The position numbers were made by a program, and so were the translations under genes. Positions 34,950-39,228 of a DNA stretch of 47,389 nucleotides are shown here, in pieces. This DNA is from Planctomycetaceae bacterium (lineage in GTDB: Bacteria > Planctomycetota > Planctomycetia > Pirellulales > UBA1268). How positions within the stretch are numbered: the first letter of the stretch is position 1; the number at the start of each line of letters is the position of its first letter. The notes under the pieces were generated by a model, which was not told the DNA's origin, made no database searches, and saw only the letters and a program-made list of their open reading frames with translations. The DNA lies in NCBI GenBank assembly GCA_947459185.1, contig CANHCU010000015.1, positions 1 through 47,389 on the forward strand, read 5' to 3'.

Positions 34950-36122
34950 CTACTGCACGCGGCCGGGCAGCGAGGCCGTCGGGTAGCCCGTGGGCCGTGC
35001 CATCTGCGACGGATGCCATCCAGTGGTGTGCTGCCATGATGGAGTGTGTCCGGTCGGTTCGAGCAGTTTCGGGAATGCGCCCGTGGCAGGGTTGGGGCCT
35101 CCGCCAGGGAGAACCGGCATGCCATTGCTGTCAGTGGTGCTCGTGCTGCCCGTGCCATTCCCACTCATGGGGGCCAGCGACGGAGCCGGCGTGCCGTTGG
35201 CGGGGGCCCGATACGGCTGCATCATTGGCGCGGTGATTCCCGGGCCAACGGGAGTGGTGGGTGCGGTCGAAGCTGCGGAGCCAGCTCCATTCGCTGCCGG
35301 CGTCCGCTGCAGTTCGGGAATCGGCTTCAGCGACGGTGTCGGCGAGAGCATCGGCGGGGCGGTGGGCTGAGGCTGCACAGCAGCAGGCGCGGGTGCCGCG
35401 TACGTGCCGCTCTGTGGCACGACCGGCTGCTGGAAGGTCGGCTGCTGGTAGACAGGCTGTTGCATGCCCTGCTGCGGCACCATAGCGGGCGCCATCGCCG
35501 GGGCTGCGATGTTCTGCGGCTGCCCAGGCTGGATCATTTGCTGCGGCACATCGGCTCCGGCAGCGCCCCAGGCCTGCGGAGTCGTCTGGACGGTAGAAGC
35601 GAACGGACTCGACACCGCGCCTGCGGTGGTGGGCGCCATCATCGGCGCCGTCGCCGCTCCCGGCACGCCGTAGGCACCAGGCGCCGAGTATCCAGGCTGC
35701 ATCTGCACGTACTTGGTCGAGTAGACCGCCCGATACTGCGTCACCGGCACATTCACCGGCTGCTGCACGTACTGAGTTACCTGCTCCATGCAATCCCGCG
35801 GGCATCCGGTGCAGGGATCAATTTCGCTCGACGGCTTGTAGCTGGTGACAGGCACGCACTGGTACTGCGTCCGGTAGGTGGTCTCGGGCACGTAGCTCAC
35901 CTGCTGCACCGGCACGACGACTGGCGGCGGCGGTGCCGGGATCGGAGCCGCGACGGGCGCGTAGATCGGCGCAGGGACCGGCGCCACCGCATATGCCGCC
36001 GGCGCCTTGCGGCAGCCCGCAAAAAGTTCGGAGAGGCAGCACTGTGCCTCGCACGCGGACGGCATCATGCATGCCGTACCGCCTGCCAACAGCACAATAA
36101 AGAGGGGACGCCGGATTCTCAT
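34950..36122 (-). CDS. secreted Pro/Gln/Ala-rich protein of unknown function
   Basis: This encodes 390 residues with a clear signal peptide ('LFIVLLAGGTACMMPSACEAQ'). A Cys-containing segment follows ('CCLSELFAGC'), then a Pro/Val-rich stretch, and a core with Tyr/Gln/Val repeats such as 'YVPETTYRTQYQCVPVT' and 'DPCTGCPRDCMEQVTQYV'. The last 200 residues are low-complexity Pro/Gln/Ala/Met. Similar repeat-rich exported proteins are common in planctomycetes and may belong to the cell surface. ATG 36122 follows CAGGAGTG. I cannot assign a function. It is co-directional with polX, 92 bases upstream of it. Confidence 0.75.
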   Translation of the reverse strand: MRIRRPLFIVLLAGGTACMMPSACEAQCCLSELFAGCRKAPAAYAVAPVPAPIYAPVAAPIPAPPPPVVVPVQQVSYVPETTYRTQYQCVPVTSYKPSSEIDPCTGCPRDCMEQVTQYVQQPVNVPVTQYRAVYSTKYVQMQPGYSAPGAYGVPGAATAPMMAPTTAGAVSSPFASTVQTTPQAWGAAGADVPQQMIQPGQPQNIAAPAMAPAMVPQQGMQQPVYQQPTFQQPVVPQSGTYAAPAPAAVQPQPTAPPMLSPTPSLKPIPELQRTPAANGAGSAASTAPTTPVGPGITAPMMQPYRAPANGTPAPSLAPMSGNGTGSTSTTDSNGMPVLPGGGPNPATGAFPKLLEPTGHTPSWQHTTGWHPSQMARPTGYPTASLPGRVQ

Positions 36123-36184: not shown

Positions 36185-36901
36185 CTAGCCTAGGTTGCGC
36201 TCTGGTGCGCCTGCGTAAGAAAAGCCGTCTGCGAATTCATGAATTCCGTGACGGCCGCCGTCAGAACCGTCATGGCCGTCAGGACCGGTGCCCACGACCG
36301 CACGGACGCGGCGTCGGCCCGCCTCGAACCGGTCATAGAGCGCGTAGAGCGACTCGCGAAGATTGCCGCTGTGGTTGGCAAATGCCGCATCGATGTCGGC
36401 CTCGCAGATCAGCGTCCCGTGCCAATCCGGGTAATGCGGAAGGCTGCGGACAATGGCACGCAGCAGGCTCGCACTCGTGCCGCACCGCGTGAGTTCCGGC
36501 ATGCCCACTCCACGGTGCGACGTCACAAGCAGCCCACAGCCCGAGAGGCGGGCGGCCAGTCGCAGCAGGATCCGGGTGGCAGGGCCAATGCATTCCCAAC
36601 TGTCGATGCAGATCGTCGCACCGGCCACCGACTGGCAGATCGCCCGCCAGGCCGCCAGGCCGTCCCGCCACGAACGCAGACGGAAGCGCGGCGACTGACC
36701 ACCACGGCGTTCGATCGCCTCGGCGAGATGCGCCAGCAGCGTCGACTTGCCGCTGCCGTGAGGGCCGACGATGGCCGCCGTGCCGCCGAGATCCCGGAGC
36801 CGTTCAAGCAGCCCTTCGACATCGACAGGCCGGCCCGCGTCATCGAGCTGCTCGATCCTTCCCGGCCGAGTGAATCGTGTTGAAAATGGGTTCGACACCA
36901 T
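36185..36901 (-). CDS. P-loop ATPase of the DUF3592/arrestin-like operon
   Basis: This is a 238-residue AAA-like P-loop protein. It has Walker A 'GPHGSGKSTLLAHL' near residue 45 and a Walker B-like strand 'TICIDSWECIG' near 95. A sensor-like 'GLLVTSHRGVGMPEL' follows, and a short helical lid ends in 'NLRESLYALYDRFE'. The C-terminal 40 residues are low-complexity and Gly/His-rich. It begins 12 bases after the arrestin-like gene and so is probably the last gene of a three-gene operon. The small size and the absence of DNA-binding or transporter parts suggest a regulatory or remodelling ATPase. The substrate is unknown. Confidence 0.75.
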   Translation of the reverse strand: MVSNPFSTRFTRPGRIEQLDDAGRPVDVEGLLERLRDLGGTAAIVGPHGSGKSTLLAHLAEAIERRGGQSPRFRLRSWRDGLAAWRAICQSVAGATICIDSWECIGPATRILLRLAARLSGCGLLVTSHRGVGMPELTRCGTSASLLRAIVRSLPHYPDWHGTLICEADIDAAFANHSGNLRESLYALYDRFEAGRRRVRAVVGTGPDGHDGSDGGRHGIHEFADGFSYAGAPERNLG

Positions 36902-36913
36902 GGCACGCTTCCG

Positions 36914-37342
36914 TCAGGCCCTCGATTCCGAAAGACGGGCGGGTGGAATCCGCCCGAGGACGAAGACGTGCTCCGACACGAAGTCGCGGGAGCCGTCAAA
37001 GAACAGCCGCACCCGGACGCACCAGCGGACCTTGACGATCAGCCCTTCGTAGGACAGCGGGCTCTGTGGCAAGGGCGTTGAGAATGCGCCGGTCGACAAT
37101 GCCGGTGGCATCATTGCACGGTCCGTGATCCGCTGGAAGAAATGCACCCCGAGATCCTCCTCGCCCTTTCCCTCGGTGTACCACAGGACGGAGTGCTCGA
37201 TCGCACGGATGCGTTCTCCATCACAGCCCTCGATGCGGTAACGGACGGCGACCTGGTCACGGGGCTCATGCTGACGATGTGGCCTGTCAAACTGCACCTC
37301 GACTCTCGGCATGGCCTGGCTGCGGTCGGCTGCGGTGTTCAT
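36914..37342 (-). CDS. small arrestin-fold-like protein
   Basis: This encodes a 142-residue protein made of beta-strands. The segment 'PLPQSPLSYEGLIVKVRWCV' followed by 'RVRLFFDGSRDFVSEHVFVLG' resembles the strand pattern of arrestin-like (Spo0M/arrestin-N) domains, which bind other proteins. The start is ATG 37342, overlapping the stop of the upstream DUF3592 gene by four bases (ATGA). The 51-residue extension in the ORF track lies inside that gene. The upstream protein ends with a similar arrestin-like region, so the two may form a complex. The family call is from pattern memory and is uncertain. Confidence 0.65.
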   Translation of the reverse strand: MNTAADRSQAMPRVEVQFDRPHRQHEPRDQVAVRYRIEGCDGERIRAIEHSVLWYTEGKGEEDLGVHFFQRITDRAMMPPALSTGAFSTPLPQSPLSYEGLIVKVRWCVRVRLFFDGSRDFVSEHVFVLGRIPPARLSESRA

Positions 37343-38745
37343 CGTGTCACCTCGGTCGATCGCAACGCATCGCGGGACGCCAGCGGTCGAGGCGGTGGCG
37401 CAGCCAACTCGGCATTGGGAGGAAACACGACGACCGGGAAAATCCGGGAAAACGCAGGCCAGCGTTCCGGTGTGCCGCGCACGACGAGCCGCCAACGGAC
37501 GGCGTTATGGGCTGATGTGAAGGAATGCATGGCGTCCTGGGGAACTTCGACCACCGCCCGCGCCTCGAACCGGGAATGGGGCTCCGCGCTGACATCATGA
37601 AAATCCGCCACCGGCTGTTTCCAGACCACCACGTGCTCCGTGCGGGTGTCGGTTCCCTGCCGGAACGTTGCCTGCTCTTCCAATTCGAGCGACAGGGTGA
37701 GTGATCGAATCGTACCTGTGCCTCCCTGTGCAAGGAGAACGTCATACCGCCGACCGGGGAGCATCGGATGATCCGAAATTTCGAGTTGCGTCGGACCAAT
37801 AGCCGTCGCGAAAACGAGACTTCTTGCAAAGAGGACGCCTCCACCGATGCCAACGCCCAGAAACGGCACCAGAAGAGCAAACAGCCACCAGTCAATTCTG
37901 CCCCCCAACAGGTCCAAGCCGGCCCCCACGGCGAGCACGACGACAACGGCATTCCAGAGCACGGCGAACAATCCAAAGCCCACCAATGTCCAACTCTCAG
38001 GGCTTTCGATCGGCAGCCGATACCGCAGAATCGTCCCCGGTGAATTGACCAGATCGTCCCACACGGGAACGGCTGGATAGCCGGGAGCTGCCTGCGCCGG
38101 CTGGGCCAGCGGATCGAGCAGTTCGGAAAGTCCGACGGACGCAGCCCGGTGTTCCTCCGACTTGCCCCAGGCACGCAGGCCGCGGACCAGGCCCGTTCCA
38201 CCGATGAGAACGAGGGCGCCCGGCAGCAGGAGCGACAGCAGCCAGAGCCACCAGCTATAGCCACGCTGCAGCACCACCGTCTGGGGTGCCGATGGGTCAT
38301 ACCAGCACGTCGTCTCTTCACCGAGCTTCCATTCAGCGAGCCGACGCAACGCCGCCTCTCGGTCGGGGGTGTTCTCGGCGGACGGGCCGTGGCTCCACGA
38401 TTCACGCACGGTGCCGTCGGTCAGATACCGGACGCGGAGACAGGGTCGCCAACTCGTGATCACCGTGCCGGGAGGATCGGCGACGGTCGTTCGCGCCAAT
38501 CCCTTGGCGAGGATCGTGCCTTTGCTTTCACGAAACTCGTGGTTGATCCGCCACTCCGGAGCAGCCACGCCAGACACGAGGATCGCGCCGAAACAGAGGC
38601 CGGCCACCAGCAGCGTCCCGTGGAACAGACCGTCGCCAAAGACTCCCCAGTCCCGAGAGCCAGTCCGCCGATGGCCGCGTTTTTTTGCGAAAAATCGCGG
38701 CAGCCTCACGATCGATCTCCTGCGGGCCGACATGTCTATGTCCAT
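37339..38745 (-). CDS. DUF3592-type membrane protein with C-terminal arrestin-like region
   Basis: This is a 468-residue membrane protein. A basic N-terminus is followed by a first span (about 43-63) and a DUF3592-like extracellular domain with 'CLRVRYLTDGTVRES' and 'TTCWYDPSAPQTVVLQRGYSW'. A second span follows directly (about 170-190), and then a pair of spans near 255-310. The C-terminal 150 residues form a soluble beta-rich region ('SLTLSLELEEQATFRQGTDTR', then 'HNAVRWRLVVRG') like an arrestin fold. It heads a three-gene operon with a small arrestin-like protein and an ATPase. DUF3592 has no known biochemical role. The start could also be ATG 38733. Confidence 0.8.
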   Translation of the reverse strand: MDIDMSARRRSIVRLPRFFAKKRGHRRTGSRDWGVFGDGLFHGTLLVAGLCFGAILVSGVAAPEWRINHEFRESKGTILAKGLARTTVADPPGTVITSWRPCLRVRYLTDGTVRESWSHGPSAENTPDREAALRRLAEWKLGEETTCWYDPSAPQTVVLQRGYSWWLWLLSLLLPGALVLIGGTGLVRGLRAWGKSEEHRAASVGLSELLDPLAQPAQAAPGYPAVPVWDDLVNSPGTILRYRLPIESPESWTLVGFGLFAVLWNAVVVVLAVGAGLDLLGGRIDWWLFALLVPFLGVGIGGGVLFARSLVFATAIGPTQLEISDHPMLPGRRYDVLLAQGGTGTIRSLTLSLELEEQATFRQGTDTRTEHVVVWKQPVADFHDVSAEPHSRFEARAVVEVPQDAMHSFTSAHNAVRWRLVVRGTPERWPAFSRIFPVVVFPPNAELAAPPPRPLASRDALRSTEVTR

Positions 38746-38806: not shown

Positions 38807-39157
38807 TCAGGCCTGACTGCAGCTTTCTTCACGTGTCTCTTGGCTCCCGGCAACGCTGCCGACCATGCCGCGCAGCGACCGTGGCCCAGTGGAGCCGGCC
38901 GGCGACGCGGGGCTAGTGCGATAAAAACCGATTTTTTCGAGCGCGCGATAGACCTCTTCCAACGTTTTCTCACCGAAGTTGGAAATGGAAAGAAGGTCGG
39001 CCCGGGTGCAGTTGAGCAGGTCGTGCACCGTGAAGATGCCTTTTTCCTCGAGGCAGTTGGTGGTGCGGACAGACAGTCCGATTTCAGCCGTACTCATTTC
39101 GAGCTTCTCGGCCATTTCGTCCGACTGTGTCAGGTTCTTGTAAGGAATGCGGGGCAT
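38807..39157 (-). CDS. stand-alone RNA polymerase alpha C-terminal domain protein
   Basis: This encodes 116 residues with a clear alpha-CTD: 'IGLSVRTTNCLEEKGIFTVH' followed by 'LLNCTRADLLSISNFGEKTL', the double helix-hairpin-helix that in RpoA binds UP elements and activators. There is no N-terminal dimerisation domain, so it is not RpoA itself. A short N-terminal piece ('MPRIPYKNLTQSDEMAEKLE') precedes the domain and a Ser/Arg-rich tail follows it. ATG 39157 has a strong GGGAGGG site and is preferred over ATG 39178. It could compete with RpoA for DNA or activators. It is divergent from the helicase gene, sharing an AT-rich promoter region. Confidence 0.9.
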   Translation of the reverse strand: MPRIPYKNLTQSDEMAEKLEMSTAEIGLSVRTTNCLEEKGIFTVHDLLNCTRADLLSISNFGEKTLEEVYRALEKIGFYRTSPASPAGSTGPRSLRGMVGSVAGSQETREESCSQA

Positions 39158-39228
39158 GGGGTCCCTCCCGTGCGACATGAATTCTGCGGTCTACCGGGCG
39201 AATGTGCCCGTGACTGGTGAGCACTGAA

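Follow-up and report, generated by a model that had tools for sequence, protein, structure and literature searches.

A conserved planctomycete gene trio that most likely encodes a split, membrane-anchored arrestin and a P-loop ATPase

The window analyzed here is a stretch of 47,389 nucleotides from contig CANHCU010000015.1 of a Planctomycetaceae bacterium of the order Pirellulales. It contains three consecutive genes, A, B and C, that follow each other in this order on the minus strand. They are listed in Table 1 with their features and neighbors. The first-pass annotation of this DNA had described a membrane protein with a DUF3592 domain whose gene overlaps a small gene by ATGA, followed 12 bases later by a P-loop ATPase. 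The overlap and the spacing were both confirmed, the ATPase is recognizable by its Walker A motif (GPHGSGKST), and DUF3592 was found in A with PF12158 (E 3.6e-9; 37.6 bits against a cut-off of 25.3). Gene A probably starts at the GTG at 38709 (residue 13, MRLPRFF...) rather than at the annotated position, because most relatives begin at the corresponding codon, with either GTG or ATG. The earlier description of A as the head of an operon is not supported, as a gene on the same strand ends 61 nt upstream of it and no promoter-like site was found. This neighboring gene encodes a stand-alone protein resembling the C-terminal domain of the RNA polymerase alpha subunit (PF03118, E 1.6e-19), and across much of the order a relative of it precedes A in the same orientation. 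At the other end, 62 nt after C, there is a gene for a proline-rich, secreted-looking protein without a Pfam match.

Table 1. The trio, its neighbors and the features within the three genes, with positions in the window.
Feature	Position	Strand	Remarks
RpoA-CTD-like gene	38807-39178	minus
Gene A	37339-38745	minus	468 aa as annotated; open frame confirmed
A, TM1 (residues 44-62)	38560-38616	minus	hydropathy
A, DUF3592 (residues 90-163)	38257-38478	minus	PF12158 match; predicted extracytoplasmic
A, TM2 (residues 169-187)	38185-38241	minus	hydropathy
A, TM3-TM4 hairpin (residues 255-302)	37840-37983	minus	hydropathy (helices 255-273 and 284-302); position matches hairpin of fused arrestins
A, arrestin C-lobe-like domain (residues 318-448)	37402-37794	minus	profile-profile match to fused C lobe
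ATGA shared by A stop and B start	37339-37342	minus
Gene B	36914-37342	minus	142 aa, soluble, arrestin N-lobe-like; open frame confirmed
B-C gap	36902-36913	minus	12 nt
Gene C	36185-36901	minus	238 aa P-loop ATPase; open frame confirmed
C, Walker A GPHGSGKST	36740-36766	minus	G46, H48, G49, G51, K52 invariant in family
C, Walker B-like ICIDSWE	36593-36613	minus	D100 invariant, E103 nearly so
C, Arg182 in GNLRES	36356-36358	minus	invariant; sensor-2-like position
Gene for proline-rich protein	34950-36122	minus

From its N-terminus onward, the A protein consists of a segment with the motif KKRGxRRTG, TM1, the DUF3592 domain, TM2, the TM3-TM4 hairpin and the arrestin C-lobe-like domain; hydropathy analysis predicted no transmembrane helices in B or C. 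The N-terminus of A is taken to be cytoplasmic because KKRGxRRTG is conserved and the segment is positively charged (mean net charge of about +6 in the family). Combined with the number of helices, this places DUF3592 outside the cytoplasm and the arrestin lobe of A inside, alongside B and C, as a prediction for which the loop between TM2 and TM3 lacks the charge bias that would confirm it. DUF3592 appears to be an optional accessory outside the constant core of the system, because it is missing in 14 relatives of the window's family (L018-L031), which retain the lobes and the ATPase, and is doubled in two distant loci (L130 and L132).

The B protein is characterized by the motif VLWYTEGKGEEDL ... 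LPxSPLSYEGxIVKxRW. It has no match of its own in Pfam or NCBIfam, and neither B nor the C-terminal domain of A from the window reaches an arrestin Pfam cut-off, so that the link with arrestins runs via relatives. Of 45 B homologs, nine match Arrestin_N (PF00339) directly (best 8.9e-10) and 11 match Arrestin_C (PF02752). A search of the PDB with the B profile gave 13 sequences at E <= 1, all from the arrestin clan and all weak (best 0.0065). Structure prediction, which had been proposed earlier as a check, was carried out with AF2 for B (strands only, pLDDT 37.8) and C (pLDDT 44.6), each from three near-identical sequences, and gave models too poor for a fold search.

Evidence on what A and B are comes from distant planctomycetes, on whose wider loci profiles of B and of the C-terminal domain of A were run. 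Both profiles match one and the same frame in L142-L144 and L146-L149 (in two copies in L144), and L145 gives a strong match to the B profile and a weaker one to that of the A C-terminus (E 2e-5). The order within these fused chains is a B-like lobe, a transmembrane hairpin and a lobe like the C-terminus of A. The hydrophobic helix pair between the lobes is present in nearly all of them (only one helix is called in L149), and the C-terminal domain of A likewise sits after a transmembrane pair. The fused proteins match Arrestin_N above its cut-off, down to E 1.2e-17, several also match Arrestin_C above cut-off, down to 9.2e-13, and some match PF07070 (Spo0M). With a profile of nine fused proteins, 14 distinct PDB sequences were found at E <= 0.1, all of them from the arrestin clan, including TXNIP (1.5e-10), ARRDC3 (8.9e-10), an arrestin-domain protein, Vps26A/B/C and Spo0M. 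In profile-profile comparisons, B aligns with the N lobe of the fused arrestins (99.5%, E 1.6e-22) and the A C-terminus with their C lobe (99.2% probability, E 2.1e-19), the crosswise matches being far weaker. The N and C lobes of the fused chains match each other at 96%, which is what an internal repeat would give. Compared directly, the profiles of B and of the A C-terminus gave a non-significant 1.9%, so that the kinship of these two lobes rests on the fused forms. Via these fused relatives, assignment of both the A C-terminus and B to the arrestin clan (Pfam CL0135) is supported, as the first-pass annotation had supposed.

That annotation had treated the two arrestin-like genes as separate adaptors, a part of its claim that can probably be refined. 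Because the A C-terminus and B match the C and N lobes of a single chain in relatives, the window most likely encodes a split arrestin, with the C lobe on a membrane hairpin and with DUF3592 as an optional extracytoplasmic part. The two lobes, which lie on two genes in the window, are joined in one protein in L142-L149. They are also joined in L041 (602 aa) and L130 (738 aa), but in the reverse order, with A and B in a single frame and the C lobe coming first. L057, L059, L150 and L151 carry a split pair without DUF3592. We read these forms as a series, i.e., fused with a transmembrane hairpin, split without DUF3592 and split with DUF3592 (the type found in the window), with no direction implied. 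Two of the fused arrestins (L144 and L149) have an additional conserved C-terminal stretch (GGQTVVGQPVGL...TVAVQFD...). PF00339 also picked up further members of the clan in the phylum (L176-L182), which seem to represent a different type.

The C protein has the hallmarks of AAA+/STAND-type ATPases, namely a Walker A motif, a Walker B motif and a conserved distal arginine. Since GxHGxGK[ST], D100, R182 and a TxH motif (T127, H129) are conserved throughout, or almost throughout, a set of 39 C homologs, the ATPase is probably active. The C protein of the window matches no curated P-loop family above cut-off (26.6 bits for AAA_16 against 32.6, others also below), and it falls in the AAA_16/STAND-like neighborhood. 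The ExeA/AAA_22-type and STAND-type ATPases share their broad P-loop class with C, and the N-terminal NPF stretch ahead of the P-loop of C resembles, by eye, ExeA-like proteins. Membership of the ExeA/AAA_22 family, which this stretch had suggested, was rejected, as the profiles of C and of 25 ExeA-like relatives could be aligned over no more than 39 columns around the P-loop.

The partner of this ATPase appears to be the arrestin and not DUF3592, because C-like ATPases are also encoded beside fused arrestins and beside split pairs that lack DUF3592. With a profile built from the order only, a C-like ATPase was found directly upstream of the fused arrestin in L146 (E 4e-7) and L149 (E 9e-9); that of L147, in the same position, became clear only after iteration of the profile. 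In L057 and L059, it lies downstream of the short split pair. The fused loci with an adjoining ATPase are thus only three, some fused loci being situated at contig ends. A C-like ATPase domain also occurs in a protein of 470 aa (L191, G340:C67), with no arrestin partner detected nearby.

The three genes form a real, conserved unit. A is present in 54 of 59 relatives, and the order and strand of A, B and C are kept in dozens of genomes. Of the 51 relatives examined, 40 retain the 4-nt overlap between A and B (ATGA or GTGA), and B and C overlap by 4 nt in 19 of 45. Among 118 genomes of the order, many of the surveyed genomes being metagenome-assembled (MAGs), 104 carry B (E <= 1e-8) and 103 carry C (E <= 1e-12). 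The two genes occur together in 100 genomes and are both missing from 11, B stands alone in four and C alone in three (Fisher p 5e-10, relatedness ignored). The earlier proposal had hinged on the three genes staying together in related Planctomycetota, and they do: in 94 of the 100 genomes with both, C follows B on the same strand at a distance of at most 700 nt. In four genomes (G039, G048, G057 and G043) C is not adjacent and a strong C is present elsewhere. In two of the genomes counted as having C only (G008 and G017) A runs to the contig end, and the C matches of G017 and G354 lie at contig starts. Altogether the trio is kept in about 85% of the genomes of the order, vertically and mostly in one copy, and it is wholly absent from one genus (G014, G022, G028 and G035) and from G019. 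A locus titled Candidatus Kuenenia stuttgartiensis (L032, CAMCQY010000013.1) carries a trio 92-98% identical to that of the window and apparently belongs to a mislabeled MAG.

The association extends beyond the order. Of 294 genomes sampled from the phylum and tallied by hand from listings, 23 have both split-type B and C, two have B only and one has C only, and the co-occurrences span several families outside the order and the class. Weak matches to the C profile (E above about 1e-6), present in 220 of these 294 genomes, were regarded as P-loop cross-matches and left uncounted. In three of the 23 genomes (G082, G194 and G250), A-B and C are all present but at separate places, and a few genomes, e.g., G068 and G156, have A and B with no C detected. 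A contig search with C yielded three close loci only. Beyond the phylum, the survey covered plasmids and viral contigs, in which no relatives of B were found.

The reading that best explains the arrestin homology, the fusion of the lobes, the co-inheritance with C and the conserved motifs, and which we hold to be fairly probable, is that A and B are the two lobes of one membrane-anchored arrestin adaptor on which the ATPase C acts. The C-terminal domain of A would be the C lobe, which the transmembrane hairpin keeps at the cytoplasmic side of the membrane, and B would supply the N lobe as a distinct polypeptide, translationally coupled to A. A cytoplasmic location of both lobes fits the positive N-terminus of A and the hairpins. 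The two-lobed adaptor would be expected to form as a 1:1 complex of A and B, and it may bind other proteins, probably those of the membrane, by their cytoplasmic regions. DUF3592, when present, may sense or contact something outside the cytoplasm. As a dedicated P-loop ATPase, C would most likely switch the adaptor between an open state, with the lobes apart, and a closed, client-bound state, or else release clients. To call the trio an envelope or sorting module, as was done in the first-pass annotation, is a guess, although its attachment to the membrane is predicted. A bolder form of this idea, rather improbable as it stands, is that of an ATP-driven, membrane-anchored arrestin machine that chooses membrane-protein cargo for sorting, internalization or turnover. 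It would be a prokaryotic counterpart of the arrestin/Vps26 trafficking adaptors, closer in sequence to alpha-arrestins than to Spo0M. The phylum is known for its inner-membrane invaginations.

Alternatively, the trio might serve one-way transmembrane signaling, in which DUF3592 senses a condition outside the cytoplasm, the arrestin lobes relay it and C acts as an ATP switch of the STAND-like kind, with an output that is regulatory and does not consist in handling membrane proteins. The variability of DUF3592 (absent, single or double) against constant lobes and ATPase is what would be expected of a sensor, and nSTAND_NTPase5 and NACHT are among the weak Pfam matches of C. However, the relatives without DUF3592 keep the rest of the system, which means that sensing by DUF3592 cannot be the core function, and C has no output domain, so that we consider signaling unlikely. 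It is quite unlikely that the trio forms a scaffold for division or for the shape of the envelope, the assembly of which the ATPase would control. The model for such a scaffold is Spo0M of Bacillus subtilis, which co-precipitates with FtsZ (PMC5325327); no other bacterial protein of the arrestin clan was found to have been studied. In favor of this reading, A is a membrane protein and the module occurs almost throughout the order, as would be expected of a housekeeping function. Yet the matches to Spo0M are weaker than those to alpha-arrestins, whole genera lack the module, which is thus not essential for division, and no recurrent division gene lies beside it. Signaling and scaffolding would rely on the same components with different outputs, and nothing in the data decisively tells these readings apart.

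That A, B and C are neighbors by synteny only, with no joint function, is very improbable and largely refuted. A UvrD-like helicase, the RpoA-CTD-like gene and a PolX-like polymerase do show synteny with the trio in some parts of the order, but only A, B and C remain together in other classes, A and B can be fused, C is present where it is unlinked, and all three are commonly absent together. An anti-phage or conflict system, for which a small ATPase with a membrane protein is a common layout, is scarcely credible given the vertical, mostly single-copy retention in the order, the lack of B matches in plasmids and viral contigs, the lack of PADLOC matches for A and B (C having only short, weak ones over the P-loop) and the mere P-loop noise in PHROGs.

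Eukaryotic members of the arrestin clan have been studied thoroughly, and the arrestin fold is best known for controlling membrane receptors in our own cells. In prokaryotes, the clan is known mainly as Spo0M, with little mechanism attached. Spo0M was placed in the clan by Alvarez and listed in several bacterial phyla, planctomycetes being unmentioned (Alvarez, 2008; PMC2515105). The open-access literature on planctomycete arrestins, DUF3592 and arrestin-like bacterial proteins yielded no description of the A-B-C module, in line with its having been called undescribed. Here, the clan would take the shape of a membrane-anchored protein in two pieces that has an ATPase of its own, retained by most of an order and present in several other groups of the phylum. 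The natural fused, split and reverse-fused forms are a natural experiment on how two lobes cooperate, and the trio provides a concrete three-gene system for asking what arrestins did before receptors.

Compared with known systems, the extracytoplasmic part of A is a member of the DUF3592 proteins (PF12158) and, unlike the lobes and the ATPase, varies among relatives. Vps26 of the retromer also belongs to the arrestin clan and has two lobes, and it is weakly matched by the fused profile (E about 6e-4); the cut-off of PF03643 is not reached, two of the 45 B homologs matching at E no better than 0.0017. Vps26 is soluble and works with Vps35/Vps29, and the recurrent neighbors of the trio suggest neither partner. 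Spo0M (PF07070) represents the clan in bacteria and archaea, and its structure 5cl2 is matched by the fused profile at E 4.2e-4; PF07070 does not match A or B of the window and matches one of the 45 B homologs (1.2e-4). Spo0M is not known to have a transmembrane hairpin, DUF3592 or an ATPase partner. The fused planctomycete arrestins score better against TXNIP and ARRDC3 than against Spo0M or Vps26, the PDB containing one Spo0M only. These eukaryotic alpha-arrestins are the best PDB matches of the fused homologs (E 1.5e-10 to 1.2e-9) and share with the planctomycete forms the presence of two arrestin-clan lobes. Whereas arrestins of eukaryotes consist of one soluble chain that has a short hinge, the planctomycete forms have a transmembrane hairpin between the lobes or are divided over two genes, and have a linked ATPase.
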